A stretch of 64,000 nt of DNA from Puia sp. (GTDB lineage Bacteria > Bacteroidota > Bacteroidia > Chitinophagales > Chitinophagaceae): assembly GCA_031292515.1 (NCBI GenBank), contig JARLGZ010000081.1, positions 186,001 to 250,000 of the forward strand. Direction: 5' to 3'. Position numbers and translations under genes: made by a program. The first letter of the stretch is position 1, and each line of letters starts with the position of its first letter. The notes under the pieces are model-generated. The model was not told where the DNA came from. It worked only from the letters and a program-made list of their open reading frames with translations, and made no database searches. Of the stretch, positions 7,347 through 64,000 are shown piece by piece.

Positions 7347-10300
7347 TTAATCCTGGCTTCTTTTATCCAGTTCCGCCACGGAGAGGTTGATCTGTTTGCC
7401 GATGGGCCGGCCATTCCGGTAAGCTGCCACCCGGATCCAGCTGGCTCCGGCCGGTAACGACAAGGCGCTCGTATAGCGGGGATAAAATGAATCAGGATTG
7501 CCGTTGTCAAAACTGTAGTAAAGATCCACACCCGGTAGCTCGCTATGGATGGCTATCTTCTTCTCCTTCCCTTCCCTGACGAACTCAACAATAGGGTCAT
7601 AGGCGCTCCGGGAATAATTGACGGAAGCGGCGTCAAACAGGTCCATTTGTTTCTCCATCCGCTTCACAAATCCGCTCCAATCCTTTTTCTCCCTGGGTGA
7701 CCACAGGACTTCGGCAAGCGCCAGGCCACGCGGCCAGGTCATATACTGCACATGACGCTCATTATAGACCGACTCGGTCCACAAATTCCCCTGACCGCCT
7801 AAAATATATTTTTCAGAAATGCCCTGCGGCACCGGTTCAAAATCATAGCAATCCTTCAAACGGAGACGGCCATACGTATCCGGTTCCACGGAAGGATCCC
7901 CCTGATAGAGATCCAGGTAACAGTTGCCGGCAGGTGTCATCACCACCGGGTGCCCCTGCCGCGCCGCCTGTATGCCCCCATCCATCCCCCGCCAGCTCAT
8001 GACCGTGGCCTCTGGCGCCAGCCCTCCTTCCAGGATCTCATCCCAGCCAATCAGTTTCTTGTTTTTGGCCAGCAATATCTTCTCCAGCCTCTTTATAAAA
8101 TAGCTTTGCAACTCTTCCACCGTCTTCAGATGTTCATCCTCCATCCTCTTCCGGCATTTGGGACAATCCTTCCAGAAACCCTTGTAAGCCTCATCGCCGC
8201 CGATATGGATATAGGGGCCCGGAAAAAGCGCCGCCACCTCGGTGAAGACCTTATCCAACACCTCGAATACCTGTTCATTGCCCGGGCATAATGCATTATC
8301 CACTTCGCCGTAGAATTTACTGCCCGGGTTGACCGCATATTGCAGACCCGTAGAAGACAATCCGGGATACGCCGCAATCATCGCCAGGCTATGACCCGGA
8401 ACATCGATCTCCGGCAGGATCGTAACATATCTCTCCGAAGCATAACGCACGATCTCCCGGATATCTTCCTGCGTATAATAGCCGACATAGTCTGCCTTCT
8501 CCTCTTTTCCCGGCGGCTGGAACGTCCACCACTGGCCTGTCCGGGCAACCCTCCAGGCCCCTGTCTGCGTCAGGCCGGGCAGTGATTTGATCTCGATCCG
8601 CCACCCCTGGTCGTCCGAAAGATGCCAGTGAAATACATTGAATTTGTACCTGGCCAGCTGATCGATATATCTTTTGACGACGTCTTTCGGGAAGTAATGA
8701 CGGCTCACATCCAGCATCAGCCCCCTCCAGCCAAACCGGGGATAGTCCACGATCTTTACCGCCGGGATGACCGGCTGAACCGTTGCACCGTTAGCCATCC
8801 GTCCGCCGTCAGCCATCGGATCGCGGTCAGTTTGAACCAATTGATTGCGGGGACCGCCTGCCGGTTGAGCCGCTGATCCATTGACAGTCTGATCGCCCGC
8901 CCCGCCCGCCGGCAGCATCTGCAAAAGAGACTGCATCCCATAGAACAAACCCGCGGGCTCATTGGCAACGATGCCGATGCCCAAGGACCGGACCTCTAAG
9001 CGATAACCCTCCCGGCCAATCGTAGTATCTTTTTCTTTCGACAACGACAGCGAGATGGCTCCCCCGGATTCTCTGCCGGCCCGGGAAACCGTTTCCCGTG
9101 AGCCTGCCCCCTGCCAATCAGCTCCCTGCCCGACAGCCGGCCGAAAACCCAGCGGGCCGGCCAGCAGATCCGCAAACGACTCACCCAACTGCTTCAAATC
9201 ACCATCCTCGCCGTCAACGACGATCCGCAGGGCAGGAGTGATCCGGAAACCCGGCTCACCGGTCATCAGCAGGGACACCGGCTGCGGCACGATCGATACA
9301 GGAGCCCCCGCCATCCGCAGGACTTCCGAATATTTTTTGTAAAGCGCCAGCGACTGCTCCACGGGGTCTCCCTGCGCAACAGCCGGGTACGGGTCATGGC
9401 TATTTACCCATTTCCATTCCTGGTCCTTTACCTTTGCAGTAAAGTCTTTCAGATCCGGCTCCTGCCCTTTCGCGAGCGCCGCGTCGAGATACCGGAAAAA
9501 CAGCTCCCAGCGGGGTTTATAGAATCCCCGGATCAACCCGGACCATTGCCGGTTGGAATACTCCCGCAACTCGCTGTTCTTATCGCCCCATAAGGTAACC
9601 AGGTCACGGGCGTTCCGTTCATACAAATCTTTCTCCGCCGGACCCGCGCCGTTTGCCCGCGCCTCCGCAATCCACTTGCCCAGCAGAAAATCCTTCCGCG
9701 TGCCAAGCAGCCGGTCCATATCATCCAGCAACTCCAGGAACTGCCGGCTATATTTCTTATATGCCGCGACATCTTTCTGCCGGTAGGCCTCCACCCATCG
9801 CTGTTGCAACGGGCTGGCATAATTTGCGAGTACCTGCCGGGTGATATCCACCAGGTCATACCGGTAACCGTCATTGGCCTTCAGCAAAGGCGCTTCTTTT
9901 GCAAACAGCCCCCAGGCCTTTACGAGCTGCAGAGGGTCATAATCCAGATCCGTCAGCACCCGGTCGATCTTCTTCTCAAAAGTCGGACGGGCCACGATGA
10001 TGGACTCCTGTCCCCCTTCACCTAGCCCTCCCCGGTATACGCTGGCTTCCAAAAGCCTCCAGGCCTCATCGATCGGTCCGCTGGAAACGCCATAACGCTC
10101 CCTGGCATATTGACGCAACCATCCCGCCAGACCCACCGGCCGGTCCTGCCAGACATTTTCGAGCATGAGCTGATAGAGCGCGGGATTCTGTTCGATGCCC
10201 TCGGGTGTCAGGCCGATGCCCACCATCTTGCCGGAAGCCGGATCATGGAGAGCCGCCGAAGGATCCGCCGCCACATGTGACATCCTTCCCCAAAGACTGA

Positions 10301-29323: not shown

Positions 29324-29353
29324 ACTCACTACTCACTACCGACTACTCACTAC
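29324..29353. repeat. Heptanucleotide array before the phosphoribosyltransferase
   Basis: Plus strand ACTCACTACTCACTACCGAC followed by TACTCACTAC. It lies between the GH29 stop and the next ATG, and runs into TACCTTTG (29351-29358), a match to the -7 promoter box. Confidence 0.75.
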
Positions 29354-29379
29354 CTTTGTCCACCTAATCCTGTAAAAAA

Positions 29380-30279
29380 ATGGGGTTGCAACAGTCATCC
29401 CTTTGTGGCACTAACGGAAATAGTTATCCGCATTTTTATTTATGTAACTATCTCCCCGGATCCGTGGGCAGGGACACCTTTTCCAATAGCCTGCTAAAAT
29501 TTAAAAAAGGAGAACACCCCGACCAGGAAGGTTGGATCGACTGCACCCTGGAACAATCCGCAGACCTGCCCATCGGGCAGGACACGATCATCCTCAGAGC
29601 CCTCCATCACGACGAGGCCGCCATCAACCCCCGAAAACCCGTCGCACTGGATCTCCTGGGAAAAGCCCTGGCCGCCCGCTTCAAATGCCGCTACCTCCCC
29701 GGCCTTCTTTATAAGATACGACCCGTAGAAGAGATAAAAAAACTTACCCGGGACCAAAGAGTGACCGCCCTGCAAGACGTCTACCGGTTTTCTCCTCCAT
29801 CTCCTATCCAATCTTCCCCAAACTCACTACTCACTAATCACCACTCACCATTGACCCCATCGCTCCCCCACTCACAATCTTCACGCCACTCACTACTCAC
29901 TACCGACTACTCACTATTCTCCCCTTACCTCGTCCTGGACGATATCGTCACGACAGGATCCACCCTGAACGCCATCTTCGACGCCATCCTCCGCGAATAC
30001 CGGAAAGCAGCCTCACTACTCACCACTGACCACTCACTGGTGACTGACCACCCCTCGCTGTCCCCATCCCCCCTCATCGCCCTATCGCTGGCCAAAGCCG
30101 ACTACGACTCCTCCTTTAATTTGTTCCACAACCTGCAGGGCAGGAACTATCGCCTGGACCCCGGTCAATCCGGCTGGCTGCTGGCCGAAGAAGAAGAAGT
30201 CTACCCATCCGTTTATTCCCTGCCAACACTCACTAGCTGGATCCGGACGGACTCTTTTCCACGCCCCTCCCCACCCTGA
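29380..30279 (+). CDS. ComF-like phosphoribosyltransferase with in-frame heptad-repeat insertions
   Basis: 299 residues. The type I phosphoribosyltransferase signature VLDDIVTTGST lies at about residues 185-195, and YLPGLLYKIRPVEEIKKLTRDQR resembles the ComF substrate region. PRPP-dependent transferase or DNA-uptake-linked ComF roles are both possible. Two stretches do not belong to the fold: residues about 144-180 (NSLLTNHHSPLT, HSLLTTDYSLFSP) and about 211-228 (SLLTTDHSLVTDHPSLS). Both are encoded by ACTCACT-type heptanucleotide arrays identical in kind to those found between genes. The frame stays open through them, so the protein may still be made, with floppy loops. It has no obvious partner gene. 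Confidence 0.75.
   Translation: MGLQQSSLCGTNGNSYPHFYLCNYLPGSVGRDTFSNSLLKFKKGEHPDQEGWIDCTLEQSADLPIGQDTIILRALHHDEAAINPRKPVALDLLGKALAARFKCRYLPGLLYKIRPVEEIKKLTRDQRVTALQDVYRFSPPSPIQSSPNSLLTNHHSPLTPSLPHSQSSRHSLLTTDYSLFSPYLVLDDIVTTGSTLNAIFDAILREYRKAASLLTTDHSLVTDHPSLSPSPLIALSLAKADYDSSFNLFHNLQGRNYRLDPGQSGWLLAEEEEVYPSVYSLPTLTSWIRTDSFPRPSPP
29822..29917. repeat. Heptanucleotide array inside the phosphoribosyltransferase gene (1)
   Basis: ACTCACTACTCACTAATCAC and later CACTCACTACTCACTACCGA sit in the coding strand just before the PRPP-binding motif. Three heptads equal 21 bp, giving the 7-residue pattern SLLTTDY. Confidence 0.75.
30012..30050. repeat. Heptanucleotide array inside the phosphoribosyltransferase gene (2)
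   Basis: CTCACTACTCACCACTGACC continuing to CTGGTGACTGACC, in frame, coding SLLTTDHSLVTD. It lies shortly after the PRPP-binding motif. Confidence 0.7.
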
Positions 30280-33982: not shown

Positions 33983-34018
33983 CTACTCACCACTCACTAT
34001 TCACCACTCACCACTCAC
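33983..34018. repeat. Heptanucleotide array at the stop codon of the SRPBCC-like gene
   Basis: On the minus strand the stop TGA is directly part of TGAGTGGTGAGTGGTGAATA, followed by GTGAGTGGTGAGTAGG. The array begins exactly at the stop codon and runs downstream of the gene. Confidence 0.8.
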
Positions 34019-55046: not shown

Positions 55047-56594
55047 CTATCCCCTGTCCCCTCTTAAATATTTCTCCCGGATCACATCCTGCACCGGAAC
55101 ATTCCGGATCTTGCTCTCCAGCCAGGAAATGATATCCAGATACATATATGCCCTCGTCTCGAACCTGTCCCTCTCATACATCTTCAGCTTCTCCAGCAGC
55201 TTCCCCAGTTCGGGCCGGATCTGTGCCGCCGTCAGTTTGAAAGAACTCCTCAAAAAGGTGAAGATCTCCTCCTCCACCCGGCTCAGATTCTCCATTTTGG
55301 CCATAAAGCGATAGACGGAACGGATCAGGTGCTCCAGGATATCGTAGTTGCCCAGCTCATAGTGTGCGATCAGGTGCAGCAACCGGGAATAGCACTGCAG
55401 ATCCGTCCGCAGATCCACTTTCCAGTTGATGATCTTATTCAGGTAATCGATCGTCTTCTCATAATCCCCGCTCCCGAAATACAGACAGGCGATCTTATAA
55501 TAGAACACCAGGATCCGGTGCCGGTCCAGATAGATCTCATACTCCTTCAGTTTCTGCTCGATCTGCGGCACCAGGGCCAGCCCCTCCGTAAAAGTACCGT
55601 CCAGGAAATGCCGGTTGATCTTCGAGATATTCAGGTAGACAAAGGTCTGTATCCGGTTATTGTGATTATGCAGGACGATATCCGAGACCGAAAACCGCTC
55701 GAACACCCCCAGAGTCTCGATAAATTTCTGGTAGTTCAACAGGTCAAAGTGTGCCCCCAGAAGATTATGCATTCCCTTTATATAGTGCGCCGTTTCAATC
55801 GTGATCATGAAAGGCTCCTTCTCAAAAAGATCCACCCATTTCTGGGTGTACCGGTAATATTGCAGGAAATCAGCCCGTATAAAGGCATACCAGGTATAAC
55901 TCTGGTAGAGATACAGCCGCTCATAAAACCCCTTACAGAGGGAGAGATCGGAAGGGAGGTGTTTTTCAAAGAACCGCTGCACAGACTCCTCATCGGCCTT
56001 GTTACGCGCCGGCCCGTTGCGTATATACCAGCTGTACAGCTGCAGGGATAAGTTCGACAGGCGGCTGACCAGCTGCAGATGGCAGTTTACATCGTCCACC
56101 TCGGCCGTCAGCCGGTCTGCCCGGTCCTGCATACTCCGGGTGATATGCAGGGTCTCAATTTTTTTCTCAAAGAACAGGACCTGCAGCAGAAAGGTCGTCT
56201 GGTTATGCGCCTTCGCATTCTCCTTGATCCGGTCCAGGATCTTCAGACTCTGCAGGTACAGCCCTTTGTTATACAGGATCCGCGCGTGATCTAACTGTTC
56301 ATGTAATTGAATATCAATGTTTTCATCGTTTTTTATGAGCCGGAGGCTGGACAGGATCTGTCGGTACAGGTGCGCCTTCGTGTTCGAAAGCTGCTGTTTC
56401 CGGATACCCTTGTTCTTCTTCAGTAACAGGGCCTCGTCATACGTCTCCATCTTGTCCATGGCGTCGAACAACTGTATGATCTTCAGGTCCTCGCTGGCCG
56501 AATTTCGACCGACATAGAGCTTAAAATTGCGTTTCTCCGACTTTTCGAGAGATTTAACAAGTTGAAACAGTGCGTCTGATGAGCGGTTGGGCAT
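55047..56594 (-). CDS. Large helical (TPR-like) protein of unknown function
   Basis: 515 residues, without signal peptide, built of helical repeats rich in Leu, Tyr and Arg (for example LYLQSLKILDRIKENAKAHN and YFGSGDYEKTIDYLNKIINW, which resembles a tetratricopeptide unit). It starts MPNRSSDALFQLVKSLEKSE. Similar proteins are widespread in Chitinophagaceae without a known role; scaffolding is plausible. It is divergent from leuA, with 165 bp between the starts. Confidence 0.7.
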   Translation of the reverse strand: MPNRSSDALFQLVKSLEKSEKRNFKLYVGRNSASEDLKIIQLFDAMDKMETYDEALLLKKNKGIRKQQLSNTKAHLYRQILSSLRLIKNDENIDIQLHEQLDHARILYNKGLYLQSLKILDRIKENAKAHNQTTFLLQVLFFEKKIETLHITRSMQDRADRLTAEVDDVNCHLQLVSRLSNLSLQLYSWYIRNGPARNKADEESVQRFFEKHLPSDLSLCKGFYERLYLYQSYTWYAFIRADFLQYYRYTQKWVDLFEKEPFMITIETAHYIKGMHNLLGAHFDLLNYQKFIETLGVFERFSVSDIVLHNHNNRIQTFVYLNISKINRHFLDGTFTEGLALVPQIEQKLKEYEIYLDRHRILVFYYKIACLYFGSGDYEKTIDYLNKIINWKVDLRTDLQCYSRLLHLIAHYELGNYDILEHLIRSVYRFMAKMENLSRVEEEIFTFLRSSFKLTAAQIRPELGKLLEKLKMYERDRFETRAYMYLDIISWLESKIRNVPVQDVIREKYLRGDRG

Positions 56595-56759
56595 CGTAAT
56601 TTAAAACTTTAAAATCCGGTACAGGAGCGGCTTTCAGGCCGATTATCCCCCCTTAAGCAATGTAAAACGGTCGGGATTATGGTTTCTTTTAGCCAGAAAA
56701 CAAAATTACTTTCGAAAACCAAGGTTGCCAGTTTTTTCTCAACGCTTTTAAAAAAATGT

Positions 56760-57929
56760 ATGTCAGACAAAAAAATCTTCATTTTTGATACCACGCTCCG
56801 CGACGGAGAACAAGTCCCGGGCTGCAAGCTCAATACGAAAGAAAAGATCGAGCTGGCCTTACAACTGGAGGCGTTGGGTGTCGATGTGCTGGAAGCAGGC
56901 TTCCCCATCTCCAGCCCCGGCGACTTCCACTCCGTGGATGAGATCTCAAAAATCATAAAGAACGCCACGGTATGCGGACTGAGCCGTGCCGTACAGAAAG
57001 ATATCGAAACGGCGGCCCAGGCCCTGAAACACGCCAAACGCCCCCGTATACACACCGGCATCGGCACCTCCGATTTTCATATTAAGGGAAAATTCAACGC
57101 GACCCGCGAAGAGATCCTTGCCCGCGCCGTCCAGGCCGTGAAATGGGCGAAGAACTTCGTCGACGATGTCGAATTCTATGCCGAAGATGCCGGCCGCACC
57201 GAAAACGAATACCTCGCCCGCGTCATCGAAGCAGTGATCGCCGCCGGCGCAACGGTCGTCAATATCCCCGATACCACCGGCTATTGCCTCCCCTATCAAT
57301 ATGGCGAAAAAATCGCCTTCCTGGTAAATAACGTAAAAAATATCGACAAGGCCGTGATCTCCTGCCATTGCCACAACGACCTCGGCCTGGCGACCGCCAA
57401 TTCCATCGCCGGGATCATGAATGGAGCCCGCCAGATCGAATGCACCATCAACGGCTTGGGCGAAAGGGCCGGGAACACCTCCCTCGAAGAAGTGGTGATG
57501 GTGATCCGCCAGCATAGGCAACTTGGCTTCTACACCGATATCAAGGCTCAGGAACTCAACCCCCTGAGCCGTCTTGTTTCCGATACCATGCGCATGCCCG
57601 TCCAGCCGAACAAGGCCATCGTAGGAGCAAACGCATTCTCCCACTCCTCCGGCATCCACCAGGATGGGTTCCTGAAAGACGCCACCACCTATGAAATCAT
57701 CAACCCCGAAGAAGTGGGCGCAGAAGGCTCCAAGATCGTCCTCACGGCCAGAAGTGGCCGTAGCGCACTGGCCTTCCGCCTGCAAAAACTCGGTTACGAT
57801 TTTAACCGCAACGACATCGACACACTGTACGAACGCTTCCTGCAGATAGCCGACACAAAAAAAGAAGTGATGGAAGACGATCTTCACAGCATGGCCAAAG
57901 CCTACACCGGATCGACCGTCAACGCCTAG
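56760..57929 (+). CDS. leuA: 2-isopropylmalate synthase, short form
   Basis: First committed enzyme of leucine synthesis: acetyl-CoA + 2-ketoisovalerate. 389 residues from the ATG at 56760, which gives the family's normal start ([20 protein letters not shown]); the frame opens 27 codons earlier without similarity. The HMGL-like barrel shows [20 protein letters not shown] and [12 protein letters not shown], and the C-terminal part has [13 protein letters not shown]. It ends at HSMAKAYTG, lacking the ~120-residue LeuA regulatory domain that binds leucine in many bacteria. The leuCDB genes follow directly, which favours LeuA over citramalate or homocitrate synthase. Confidence 0.93.
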
Positions 57930-60496: not shown

Positions 60497-61612
60497 ATGC
60501 AAAAGAACATCGTAGTCATAGAAGGAGACGGCATCGGCCCGGAAGTGACCCGCCAGGCCATCAAAGTATTGAACGCCATCGCGGAACAAGGCGGCCACGA
60601 ATTCAACTATAAATATTGCCTGATGGGAGCCGACGCCATCGACAAGACCGGCAACCCGCTCCCCGACGAGACCATCGAAGCCGCGCTGAATAGCGACGCG
60701 ATCCTCTTTGGCGCCATCGGCCATCCCAAATACGATAACGACCCTACCGCGAAGATCAGGCCCGAACAAGGTCTGCTAAAACTGCGGAAGTCCCTGCAGC
60801 TCTTTGCCAACATACGACCCGTGTCTACCTATCCCGCCCTGCAGCACCTTTCTCCGCTCAAGGCCAAAAACCTGGAAGATGTCGACTTCGTCATATTCCG
60901 TGAACTGACCGGCGGCATCTATTTCGGAAAGAAAGAGCTCAGTGCAGACGGCAGACAGGCATCGGACGACTGCGTCTATTCTTACGAAGAGATCGAACGC
61001 ATCGCCCACCTGGCCTTCAAACAGGCACAGCAAAGGAGAAAGAAACTCACCCTCGTAGACAAAGCCAACGTACTCGAGACTTCCAGACTCTGGAGAAGAG
61101 TGGTCCAGGAGATCGCCCCCCAGTATAGCGACGTAGCCGTTGACTTCCTGTTTGTGGACAACGCCGCCATGCAGATCATCCTCAACCCGAAACAGTTCGA
61201 CGTAGTCCTCACCGAAAATATGTTCGGAGACATCATCAGCGACGAAGCCAGCGTCATCAGCGGATCACTGGGCCTGCTCCCCTCCGCCTCTATCGGAAAA
61301 GGAGCGGCTCTTTTCGAACCCATACACGGCTCTTATCCCCAGGCGGCCGGCAAAGACATCGCCAACCCGCTGGGATCCATCCTGTCCGCAGCGATGCTCC
61401 TCGACCATTTCGGGCTGGGCGCAGAAGCTACCAAAATCAGGGAGGCCGTAAACTGGACCCTTCAGAATGGTTTTGTAACAAAAGATATCGACCCCATTAA
61501 TTTTTACTTTACCACCACCATCGGCGAACTCATCAGCGACTATGTCGGTGGCAAAATTCCGGGCGATATCCATAAGGAGAATATTGAATTGAGGAAGTCG
61601 ACGATTATATAG
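60497..61612 (+). CDS. leuB: 3-isopropylmalate dehydrogenase
   Basis: 371-residue NAD-dependent dehydrogenase that makes 2-ketoisocaproate. It shows the N-terminal VIEGDGIGPEVTRQAIKVL, substrate-binding RKSLQLFANIRPV and the C-terminal TENMFGDIISDEASVISGSL and HGSYPQAAGKDIANPLGSIL. It completes leuACDB. The stop TAG (61610-61612) is the first base triplet of a heptad array (TAGTGAGTGGTGAGTGG). Confidence 0.98.
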   Translation: MQKNIVVIEGDGIGPEVTRQAIKVLNAIAEQGGHEFNYKYCLMGADAIDKTGNPLPDETIEAALNSDAILFGAIGHPKYDNDPTAKIRPEQGLLKLRKSLQLFANIRPVSTYPALQHLSPLKAKNLEDVDFVIFRELTGGIYFGKKELSADGRQASDDCVYSYEEIERIAHLAFKQAQQRRKKLTLVDKANVLETSRLWRRVVQEIAPQYSDVAVDFLFVDNAAMQIILNPKQFDVVLTENMFGDIISDEASVISGSLGLLPSASIGKGAALFEPIHGSYPQAAGKDIANPLGSILSAAMLLDHFGLGAEATKIREAVNWTLQNGFVTKDIDPINFYFTTTIGELISDYVGGKIPGDIHKENIELRKSTII

Positions 61613-61735
61613 TGAGTGGTGAGTGGTCAGTAGTGAGTGGATCGTCAAATAATGGTGAGAGGTGAGTTGTGAGTGCCGTGTACAAGTCTTTTAGCTTTAA
61701 ATAACGCTACTCACAACTCACCACTCAATACTGAC
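61611..61735. repeat. Inverted pair of heptanucleotide arrays between leuB and the ilv leader
   Basis: A left array TGAGTGGTGAGTGGTCAGTA begins at the leuB stop. A right array in reverse orientation (ACTCACAACTCACCACTCAA) ends at 61735. TGAGTGGTGAGT (61613-61624) and ACTCACCACTCA (61716-61727) are perfect 12-bp complements, so the RNA can fold into a long hairpin. There is no T-run, so it is not a plain terminator. Confidence 0.75.
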
Positions 61736-61746
61736 TAAAAAAGTTC

Positions 61747-61777
61747 TTTGTATATTCAAAAGGCGGGCGTATATTCA
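61747..61777 (+). promoter_or_regulatory. Promoter of the ilv leader
   Basis: TTTG at 61747-61750, a 19-bp spacer, then TATATTCA at 61770-61777 (TAnnTTTG with two changes at the end). Transcription would begin near 61782, 15 nt before the leader peptide ATG. The position right before the leader supports separate control of ilvE and ilvD from leuB. Confidence 0.55.
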
Positions 61778-61796
61778 TAGTACAATAACGTTCTCC

Positions 61797-61892
61797 ATGT
61801 CGAAGCGCAGTATGAATCTAGTAATTACAACTCTCTCCACGATTCTCGTGGTGGTGGTGATTATTATTCCTGCAATTCCGGGAGGGGGCTAA
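61797..61892 (+). CDS. ilvL: ilv leader (attenuator) peptide
   Basis: 31-residue peptide starting MSKRSMNLV and continuing ITTLSTILVVVVIIIPAIP then three Gly and TAA. Fourteen residues are Leu, Val or Ile, including four GTG codons followed by three ATT codons. This is the form of the ilvGMEDA leader peptide of enteric bacteria. Its role is not to act as protein: ribosome stalling at Val/Ile codons under starvation should prevent the downstream terminator from folding. It is too short for automatic ORF calls. Confidence is high because peptide content, terminator and the following ilvE/ilvD genes agree. Confidence 0.85.
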   Translation: MSKRSMNLVITTLSTILVVVVIIIPAIPGGG

Positions 61893-61957
61893 AGTAGAAA
61901 ACGAACAAAACGAAGATACTACGCGACCCGCCTCCCAGGAGGCGGGTCGCTTTTTTT
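61837..61957 (+). promoter_or_regulatory. Transcription attenuator of ilvED
   Basis: Three competing structures are visible. A 5' hairpin CCACGA/TCGTGG (61837-61851) lies within the peptide's codons just before and at the Val run. GGGAGG at the end of the peptide (61880-61885) can pair with CCTCCC (61931-61936), forming an antiterminator. CCTCC is also part of the terminator stem. A ribosome stalled on the Val/Ile codons leaves GGGAGG free and allows readthrough; one that reaches the TAA covers it and permits termination. Confidence 0.7.
61923..61957 (+). terminator. Attenuator terminator before ilvE
   Basis: GCGACCCGCCTCC and GGAGGCGGGTCGC form a perfect 13-bp stem with a tiny loop, followed by seven T. 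It lies 24 bp before the ilvE ATG and after the leader peptide, so it can only be a conditional stop for the genes downstream. Confidence 0.95.
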
Positions 61958-61981
61958 ATCCCTCCATCAAAAAACTTGTAT

Positions 61982-62893
61982 ATGGCATCTTATTATAATG
62001 GACATACCATCCTTTGGCTCGACGGGGCTTTTGTAAAAGCCTCGGAAGCAAAGACAGACCTCTATGGTCAGTCCCTGCATTACGGTTATGCGGTATTTGA
62101 AGGCATAAGATCCTACAGGAATGTGAAGGGATTGACGAAGATCTTCAAAGCACGCGAACATTTCGAACGCCTGAGGAATTCGGCCCGCGCACTCAACCTG
62201 CCCTATCCCTGGTCAACGGAAGAATTGATCGAAAACACCTATGCCGTGCTGACAAAAAACAACCAGCAGAACGCGTATATACGCCCCCTGGTCTATGCGC
62301 CGGCCAATATGAGCTTCGCAAAAAATACAGAATCTCATATCGCCATCGAGACATGGGAGATGGAACCCTTCCTCGGCGACAAGCTTTTACGGGTAATGGT
62401 CTCCGGCTTTCAGCGACCCAACCCGAAAGGCTTCAAAATAGAAGCAAAAGCATCCGGCCATTATGTGAACTCCATATTGGCAAGCCAGGAAGCAAAAGCC
62501 GCAGGGTATGACGAGGCGCTCCTGACTGATATGAACGGGTATGTGGCCGAAGGACCCGGCGCCAACGTCTTTTTCGAGAAAGACGGCGTGCTGTATACCC
62601 CCGCCGCCGGTAATATCCTGCCCGGCATCACAAGGGCCACCGTCATTGAAATCTGCCACCAGTCGGGCATCCCCGTGAAAGAGCAGTTCTTCACCGTCGA
62701 AGCGCTCAAAGAAGCCGACACGGCCTTCTTCTGCGGCACGGCGGCAGAAGTGATCGGCTGGGAATCCCTGGACGGACAGCCCTTTAAAAAGAGATGGATC
62801 GGCTCCCTGTCTCACCGGATCCAACAGGCCTACCAGGACCGGGTCATAGAAAAACAGCCGGAAGAAAGATTCGCGGAACTGGAAAAAGTATAA
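61982..62893 (+). CDS. ilvE: Branched-chain amino-acid aminotransferase
   Basis: 303 residues from the ATG at 61982 (a TTG two codons earlier is less likely). Class IV PLP enzyme that gives the last step of Leu, Ile and Val synthesis. The motifs SLHYGYAVFEGIRSY, the PLP-lysine block EAKASGHYVNSILASQEAKA, and YVAEGPGANVFFEKDG, NILPGITRATV are typical. It is the first structural gene after the attenuator. The D-amino-acid transaminase alternative is unlikely in this context. Confidence 0.95.
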   Translation: MASYYNGHTILWLDGAFVKASEAKTDLYGQSLHYGYAVFEGIRSYRNVKGLTKIFKAREHFERLRNSARALNLPYPWSTEELIENTYAVLTKNNQQNAYIRPLVYAPANMSFAKNTESHIAIETWEMEPFLGDKLLRVMVSGFQRPNPKGFKIEAKASGHYVNSILASQEAKAAGYDEALLTDMNGYVAEGPGANVFFEKDGVLYTPAAGNILPGITRATVIEICHQSGIPVKEQFFTVEALKEADTAFFCGTAAEVIGWESLDGQPFKKRWIGSLSHRIQQAYQDRVIEKQPEERFAELEKV

Positions 62894-63236
62894 CCGGAAA
62901 AATATAAATCTATAAAACACAGACCGATAAGATCAACGGATCAGCAAAATCAACAGATTAATTATAGTAACGACAGATCACAATAGCAACAAACCAGAAT
63001 AGTAACAGATCAAAAAATCAAGTAGATCAAAAAAACGCCAAATCAATAAAGACAACAGATTCTATAAAGACAAGCAAATCGAATAGACCAATAAAAGCAT
63101 TAAATCAATAAAGACGACAGATTTGTAAAATCCGCAGATCGATAAGAGCAGCAGATCATAACAAATCGTATTAACAGCAGATCATATTAATAGCAGATCA
63201 CAATCTATCAGAAATAAAAAAACACAAGACTAAGCC
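62894..63236. repeat. A-rich repeat leader between ilvE and ilvD
   Basis: 343 bp without a gene, made of short degenerate repeats such as AACAGATCA and CAGATCATA. AAATCAATAAAGACAACAGA at 63040 recurs at 63102 with one change (22 bp, 62-bp period). There are many in-phase stops and no terminator. It looks like an expanded leader running up to the ilvD ATG. Confidence 0.65.
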
Positions 63237-64000
63237 ATGGAATTGAATAAGTACAGTAAGACACTCACGCAAGACCCGACGCAACCCGCCGCACAGGCGA
63301 TGTTGTATGGCATTGGACTGACAGACGAAGACCTGAAGAAAGCACAGGTGGGCGTGGCCAGCATGGGATATGACGGCAACACCTGCAATATGCATCTGAA
63401 TGACCTGGCCAAACTGGTCAAGGAAGGCACCTGGAAACAAGACCTTGTGGGCCTCATCTTTAACACCATCGGCGTGAGCGATGGCATGAGCAACGGTACG
63501 GACGGGATGCGCTACTCTCTGGTAAGCCGCGACCTGATCGCCGACTCCATCGAAGCCGTCTGCGGCGCACAATACTATGACGGCCTGATCACCCTGCCCG
63601 GATGCGACAAAAACATGCCCGGCTCCATCATCGCCATGGGGCGCCTCGACCGCCCTTCGATCATGGTCTACGGCGGCACGATCGCACCCGGCCACTACAA
63701 AGGCCAGGATCTCAATATCATCTCTTCTTTTGAAGCCCTGGGACAAAAGATCGCCGGAAAACTGGACGACGCCGACTTCAAAGGCATCGTCATGAACTCC
63801 TGCCCCGGCGCCGGCGCCTGCGGAGGCATGTATACCGCGAACACTATGGCCGCCGCCATCGAAGCCCTGGGCATGAGCCTCCCCTATTCCTCTTCCAGCC
63901 CCGCGCTCAGCGAAGAGAAAAAGAAGGAATGCCTGGCAGCGGGAGCGGCCATCCGCCTGCTGCTCGAAAAAGATATCAGACCTTCGCATATCATGACACG
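63237..64000 (+). CDS. ilvD: Dihydroxy-acid dehydratase, C-terminus cut by window edge
   Basis: Open from the ATG at 63237 to the right edge (254 codons; the full enzyme has about 560). It dehydrates dihydroxy acids in Ile and Val synthesis. The start [20 protein letters not shown] and the Fe-S cysteine motifs [21 protein letters not shown] and [18 protein letters not shown] are diagnostic. It lies downstream of the attenuator and ilvE, presumably in the same operon, with further ilv genes likely beyond the window. Confidence 0.95.

Follow-up and report, generated by a model that had tools for sequence, protein, structure and literature searches.

Ribosome-mediated attenuation is established in enteric bacteria, and in the ilvL leader of E. 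coli the protector arm lies inside the leader frame. Ahead of the ilvGMEDA operon, this leader has a Val/Ile-rich frame followed by a GC-rich hairpin and a T-run, the same layout as that of the locus described here; the surrounding sequence differs, and the leader end and the terminator are unrelated to ours. By inspection, GTGCGGGG, located after the Ile run of ilvL, can pair with CCCCGCAC of its terminator, and the last Ile codon is six nt from this arm in E. coli versus twelve in our locus. The two leaders have an exact 20-mer in common, GTGGTGGTGATTATTATTCC (positions 401-420 of the E. coli locus L144); the surroundings differ, and a search at E=1 found the match in 2 of 5426 E. coli genomes, so this identity is most simply read as convergence and, judging by the sequences, probably is that.

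As for bacteria outside the Proteobacteria, the ilvBNC attenuator of Corynebacterium and further actinobacterial leaders also have an upstream frame and hairpins controlling branched-chain genes; likened to our locus by the descriptions in the accessible parts of these papers, they differ from it in phylum and gene order (PMC11857589, PMC10272879, PMC1262725). According to the accessible text of a 2010 survey, leader-peptide systems had until then been known from Proteobacteria and Actinobacteria alone, and the survey itself added one from Firmicutes (PMC2965389); the abstract of a 2022 paper gives RNA attenuators for Proteobacteria (PMC9413887). Regarding the Bacteroidota, short frames reminiscent of leader peptides appear in excerpts of a paper on Bacteroides thetaiotaomicron (PMC7366714), and a 2021 study of Flavobacterium psychrophilum described "strong clues" that leader peptide attenuators precede operons for amino-acid biosynthesis, with conserved elements at pheA and hisG; it shares with our locus the phylum and the proposed type of control, but an ilv element is not mentioned in its main text, as far as accessible, and no alignment is shown there (PMC9723704). 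Among titles and abstract openings, mostly of literature outside subscription journals, none names an ilv attenuator in Bacteroidota. An earlier note on the present DNA had been aware of no well-studied ilv attenuators of this kind in this phylum; for ilv, the titles and abstract openings agree with this, whereas clues to leader-peptide attenuation as such had been published for Flavobacterium by 2021.

What is added here is a family-wide ilv element, in the Chitinophagaceae, together with its pairing rules. The element is real and conserved. It is almost certainly an attenuator and belongs to a known kind, one hardly described so far in this phylum. If this is true, it provides a deeply sampled, independent set on how the leading edge of the ribosome shapes attenuators, and a test of leader translation initiation where Shine-Dalgarno pairing is little used; flavobacterial genes lack Shine-Dalgarno sequences, according to the accessible text of the Flavobacterium study (PMC9723704).

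Gene row and parts of the leader

The window, i.e., the whole stretch of 64,000 nucleotides analysed, corresponds to bases 186001-250000 of contig C211, in a genome of 7.3 Mb distributed over 285 contigs. Its gene order, with names given by inspection, is leuA-leuC-leuD-leuB, a gap, ilvE and ilvD, all on the same strand: leuB ends at 61612, upstream of the leader, ilvE (61982-62893, + strand) is the first gene of the row and ilvD (from 63237 on, + strand) the second. The earlier note had placed ilvE and ilvD under the control of the switch; both are present, but past the window edge (locus L033) the row goes on with ilvB, a methyltransferase gene, ilvN, ilvC and ilvA, and the complete row after the switch reads ilvE-ilvD-ilvB-methyltransferase-ilvN-ilvC-ilvA, the ilv names again by inspection. 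The methyltransferase gene, recognized through Pfam, occupies L033:6431-7198. No Leu leader was seen upstream of leuA, at 56560-56800.

Two kinds of repeats occur in this region. Copies of GTGAGTNGTGAGT lie at 61612-61721, and also at 29324-29900 and 33985-34018 (8 exact matches in the window against none in shuffles); they make 24-nt inverted repeats in the stretch between leuB and the leader, and possibly represent a mobile or structural intergenic repeat. The gap of about 340 nt between ilvE and ilvD (62890-63240) is full of diverged repeats around AACAGATCA and AATAAAGAC.

The leader peptide frame, MSKRSMNLVITTLSTILVVVVIIIPAIPGGG, spans 61797-61892 on the + strand; it has 31 codons, starts with ATG and stops with TAA at 61890-61892, and it contains 14 Val, Ile or Leu codons among 30 residues, with a binomial P of 0.0017 given the frequency of these residues (0.213) in 24 long ORFs of the window. 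Its control codons, read from the sequence, are four Val (GTG x4, 61848-61859) followed by three Ile (ATT x3, 61860-61868). This frame and its Val4-Ile3 run had been described by the earlier note and are read directly at these positions, as is the pairing segment that it had located at the 3' end of the frame: GGGAGGGGGC (61880-61889), formed by the final leader codons, closes the frame and is segment 2, the 5' arm of the antiterminator. Segment 3 (61923-61938) comprises the 5' arm of the terminator, with CCCGCCTCC, and the loop, and would act also as the 3' arm of the antiterminator; segment 4 (61939-61957) consists of the 3' arm of the terminator (61939-61950) and a run of seven T (61951-61957), 24 nt from the ATG of ilvE at 61982. 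This distance and the T-run agree with the earlier description; its "perfect 13-bp" terminator is slightly generous, because the hairpin at 61923-61950 has a stem of 12 bp with a 4-nt loop, the inverted arms being of 13 nt when taken 2 nt apart. The region folds with -73.3 kcal/mol, compared with a mean of -55.3 (sd 4.0) for its shuffles (z -4.5; 0 of 200 shuffles as low), and the curated Rfam covariance models, run on the whole window, gave no match at the gathering score to any T-box, riboswitch or known leader.

Upstream of the frame, a promoter-like pair is formed by TTTG (61747-61750) and, 19 nt further on, TATATTCA (61770-61777), which we take to resemble the -33/-7 pattern of Bacteroidota. 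A sigma-70 scan, of a type that does not cover this pattern, had no site at the pair; a -33-like and then a -7-like match occur in this order in 63 of the 82 leaders described below for relatives, by a loose pattern applied without a background control. If the pair is used as a promoter, transcription would start about 12-14 nt upstream of the leader ATG, as judged from the -7 box.

With these parts, the element is very probably a ribosome-mediated transcription attenuator of the ilvE-D-B-N-C-A row, which would be made as one transcript, and would sense charged tRNA-Val and tRNA-Ile. A ribosome would translate the 31-codon peptide behind the RNA polymerase; when Val- or Ile-tRNA is scarce, it would stall on the Val/Ile run, the last codon of which lies four codons before GGAGG, so that its leading edge would stop just short of GGAGG and leave it to pair with CCUCC (the 2:3 duplex), with read-through into ilvE. 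When both tRNAs are plentiful, the ribosome would reach the stop codon and cover GGAGG, the 3:4 hairpin would form, and transcription would end at the U7 tract. If no ribosome is loaded, pairing of segment 2 with a candidate segment 1 at the leader start may close the leader and sequester GGAGG.

Conservation of the leader in relatives

The search with IlvE matched 87 of 244 family genomes at 1e-80, and 29 loci besides that of the window were used; further IlvE loci were the best 80 of 321, taken from named species-level genomes. The removal of 15 duplicate regions from 111 loci left 96 different ilvE upstream regions, counting that of the window. In 82 of the 96 there is an ATG frame that has a Gly pair and a stretch of 10 residues with 8 or more Val, Ile or Leu; in dinucleotide shuffles of 95 upstream regions, such a frame appeared in 1 of 1900. 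Six leaders have another form, with a GTG or TTG start (L013, L039, L051, L071) or a variant end (L086, L091), which brings the total to 88 of 96; one region (L070) is cut by the contig end and retains the terminator, and seven relatives have no leader before ilvE (L059, L078, L081, L085, L089, L092, L093). The covariance model matched all six variant forms and the L070 fragment at E<=0.05, and gave nothing at this threshold over 3.8 to 20.9 kb of each of the seven leaderless relatives. By inspection, ilvE directly follows leuB in L078, L085 and L089. In L059, L081 and L093, also by inspection, ilvE comes after the end of a leuA-like gene, and a different hairpin with a T-run is found in the gap.

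When the 82 peptides are aligned on GGAGG, Val or Ile occupy positions -10 to -5 almost throughout, positions -4 and -3 are mostly Pro-Ala or Ser-His, and Gly is found at 0 and +1 in 79 and 82 leaders, respectively. The earlier note had counted Leu among the sensed residues together with Val and Ile; in this profile Val and Ile dominate the run and Leu is minor. Ile codons of the nine-codon run are ATT in 312 cases, ATA in 24 and ATC in 14 (n=350), whereas the 24 long ORFs of the window have 73% ATC and 13% ATT; slow decoding or the avoidance of extra pairing would explain this preference, and either would fit.

These data bear on the possibility that the product is a functional small hydrophobic peptide and the frame no sensor. 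The peptide is indeed hydrophobic and its sequence conserved, but this conservation tracks codons and RNA (ATT in 312 of 350 Ile codons, and a Gly end that encodes GGAGG), and in L091, where the peptide is in another reading frame and the covariance model matches at 9817-9930, GGAGGUGG is retained out of frame; moreover, ilv leaders of other families differ in sequence and keep the layout, and neither Pfam nor NCBIfam returned a family for the window peptide or a stretch of the L045 leader at E up to 10. A role as a functional peptide has on these grounds a next to negligible probability. The Gly codons of the leader appear instead, from the sequences, to be retained for RNA pairing, that of GGAGGUGG with CCGCCUCC in the 5' arm of the terminator.

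Pairing, spacing and the leader start site

The conservation of Val/Ile codons and the compensatory stem changes in Chitinophagaceae, which the earlier note had proposed as a check, came out clearly for the frame and the terminator, and more weakly for co-variation in the antiterminator. In the terminator, 98.1% of the cells are paired, 4 of 8 pairs have changed on both sides, and the covariation score was equalled by 0 of 500 shuffles. In the antiterminator, 89.7% are paired (0 of 500 shuffles as high); co-variation is weak, since 2 of 8 pairs have changed on both sides (142 of 500 shuffles), the covariation score is reached in 74 of 500, and further pair types in 403 of 500. Although their place is often in the loop of the terminator, the last two positions of CCUCC are occupied by C in 59 of 60 and 50 of 60 leaders.

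The complementarity of segments 2 and 3 was evaluated in 81 leaders, with L074 left out of this test, of the ribosome-footprint folds and of the start-site controls; in 76 of them, no more than 5 of 100 shuffles do as well as the 2:3 duplex. In L074, CCGCCCCG replaces CCGCCUCC in segment 3 and the central pair is broken; this leader is outside the pair counts, and L109 has GGGGG where others have GGAGG. The Chitinophaga group (L095-L113 minus the duplicate L106, with one record labelled Flavihumibacter) has its own terminator arm, GCCUUCCUCC, and a leader end GGAGGA. As group means, segment 2 of Chitinophaga pairs with its own segment 3 at -16.3 kcal/mol and with that of other genera at -12.2, and segment 2 of the other genera at -17.4 with their own and -14.7 with that of Chitinophaga; the exchange of segment 3 between the groups thus weakens 2:3 by 4.1 and 2.6 kcal/mol. 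What supports the antiterminator is therefore its conservation, the complementarity of its arms (76 of 81), the spacing and the outcome of exchanging segment 3 between groups; co-variation contributes little.

Regarding spacing, the gap between the last Val, Ile or Leu codon of the run and GGAGG measures four codons in 75 of the 82 leaders, about the reach of the leading edge of the ribosome; among the others it is three codons long in 4 leaders, five codons in 1 leader and seven codons in 2. Folds were computed with an assumed footprint of 15 nt on either side of the P site and an assumed RNA start 18 nt before the ATG: with the ribosome on the last control codon and segment 4 not yet made, at least 4 expected 2:3 pairs are predicted in 79 of 81 leaders, and with the ribosome at the stop codon, less than 1 is predicted in 81 of 81. 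Computed on the full-length RNA at equilibrium, the terminator dominates in the stalled and finishing states alike; preferred at full length even with a stalled ribosome, it implies that the switch must be kinetic.

It could be argued that the hairpin is a plain terminator of leuACDB, which would also insulate ilvE, with an incidental small frame before it: leuB lies upstream on the same strand, it is found ahead of the element in 29 of the best 30 loci of the family, and a scan found no + strand terminator-like site between the end of leuB (61612) and the hairpin. The same two findings leave unproven the statement of the earlier note that leuACDB is transcribed separately, and the hairpin may well end leu transcripts as well. 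A plain terminator leaves unaccounted for the conserved Val/Ile frame with its fixed four-codon gap to GGAGG and the complementarity of segment 2 to the terminator arm, and as the whole explanation it is extremely unlikely. Very unlikely, too, is that the leader acts on translation (by coupling, reinitiation or as a translational attenuator) with the hairpin as a secondary feature. Leader genes have been proposed to raise downstream translation by short-distance reinitiation, but the accessible text of that proposal refers to 10-16 bp (PMC4833913), and here the leader stop codon is 89 nt upstream of the ilvE ATG; across the 82 leaders it is about 73 to 241 nt before the fourth codon of ilvE, and the hairpin is followed by a T-run.

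As for segment 1, an arm like that of E. coli, inside the frame, was considered: the window has a CCACGA/UCGUGG stem over its Val codons, but by inspection neither this stem nor any other in-frame protector arm is conserved among relatives. The candidate segment 1 is located instead at the start of the leader (61791-61799, + strand), where UUCUCC and the start codon AUG are complementary to GGAGG of segment 2. A pyrimidine motif abuts the leader ATG in relatives, CCUCC in the Chitinophaga group and CCUUC, CCUCU or UCUCC in many others. The 5-mer pairing with GGAGG scores at least 3 in 52 of 82 leaders, against 25 of 826 other ORF starts in the same loci, for which the first ATG of each long frame was taken, certainly not a true start in every case; the score is zero in 27 of the 82. 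The duplex between start site and GGAGG stretch, compared with 690 ORF starts and with L109 left out (n=81), has p<=0.05 in 52 and p<=0.01 in 30 leaders, the latter divided into 17 of 17 for the Chitinophaga group and 13 of 64 elsewhere; that of the window is marginal (p 0.052). In 57 of 81 leaders, the pairing of the start site with the GGAGG stretch is unmatched by any other stretch of the leader. GGAGG itself hardly varies among leaders.

When the RNA is folded as it stands before segment 3 has been made, 71 of 81 leaders have 3 or more expected 1:2 pairs, and the mean number of these pairs falls from 6.7 to 2.4 with start sites of other genes and to 3.4 with a shuffled start site; 56 of 81 leaders are equalled by at most 2 of 40 controls, and that of the window by 0 of 40. 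A blunter shuffle test supports 1:2 in 28 of 81. At equilibrium without a ribosome, once segment 3 exists, 7.2 pairs are expected for 2:3 versus 1.1 for 1:2. Since 2:3 outcompetes 1:2, any action of the start-site arm would have to be kinetic or consist in closing the start codon, and in these models 1:2 may not enforce termination.

Taken together, a start-site arm is likely for the Chitinophaga group and for many further leaders, and no more than a candidate in the rest; it may make the element a variant of the known attenuator. The broader proposal is that the Chitinophagaceae have an attenuation variant where the protector arm is the translation start of the leader itself, and the leader-terminal GGAGG pairs with a CCUCC-AUG (or CCUUC/CCUCU-AUG) close to the RNA 5' end; we hold this as tentative, at somewhat below even chances. 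Were it true, one GGAGG would decide both the translatability of the leader and the continuation of ilv transcription.

Distribution of the element and other candidate leaders

The occurrence of the element was surveyed with the covariance model R1, built on 60 leaders with the terminator pairs only; alignment A1 omits L047, for which the script found no T-run, and 21 of the other 81 leaders, chosen by eye, L074 included. R1 found the element at E<=0.001 in 109 of 195 family genomes, some of which also supplied its training sequences: it occurs once in 107 and twice in 2, and the other 86 genomes had no match. Among the best 30 family loci, 29 have leuB before the element and ilvE or ilvD after it; in the remaining one (L178), the leader MSGKRLYSIAAFITAIIIVVVIVIPALHGGENYL is followed by a gene for an ACT-domain protein resembling the small subunit of acetolactate synthase.

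Across the whole class, R1 matches 32 of 295 genomes at E<=0.01, of which 4 belong to the same family; 14 of these class loci were read. By tblastn, the gene downstream is ilvE or ilvD in five loci (L182, L183, L184, L188, L198), and two more (L185, L189) have an IlvN-like frame there. By inspection, the sequence of L190 reaches the end of its contig, and L195 is not an attenuator. In other families, inspection near positions 1495-1610 of L186, L187, L193 and L194 revealed Thr/Ile-rich leaders before aspartokinase-like genes, and near 1530-1560 of L192, again in another family of the class, a His-rich leader before a hisG-like gene. As the downstream genes of the class loci differ, the weaker R1 matches represent a common layout and not one sequence family; likewise, leaders before ilv genes in other families have a different sequence and the same layout.

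A separate scan of ilvD covered 29 loci from 28 other class genomes and gave candidates in 14 of them, by a loose rule applied without a shuffle control. Those in L117, L121, L122, L123, L130, L131, L138, L139 and L141 were judged leader-like and lie before ilvD; in L127 and L129, leader-like frames, so judged, lie after it. The latter (L127:3326-3376 and, on the reverse strand, L129 3317-3364) are Val-rich frames with a hairpin, placed after ilvD and before the next gene, which suggests internal attenuators. The candidates of L118, L128 and L136 were rejected, as were additional frames in L127 and L129; all of these resemble chance frames or membrane proteins.

Finally, four pathway families beyond ilv were looked up in the genome of the window: his, phe/tyr, trp and homoserine dehydrogenase. 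No Thr/Ile leader was found at its two homoserine dehydrogenase loci, one of which (L148) contains no gene start. For the other three, the genome carries what look like attenuators from their sequences: a His-rich leader, MITNRHHHHHFFLLPG, before hisG (L145, about 1180-1230); a Phe/Tyr-rich leader, MNTTKAHRYFYFFFYFYFKSGPGLLLLKTK, before the prephenate dehydratase gene (L146, about 1199-1291); and a Trp-rich leader, MNNQFVSKVWWWHTNSERGK, before trpE (L147, about 1100-1162). Each of these candidates is followed by a hairpin and a T-run, and by inspection the stop codon of the his leader sits in a copy of the terminator 3' arm.
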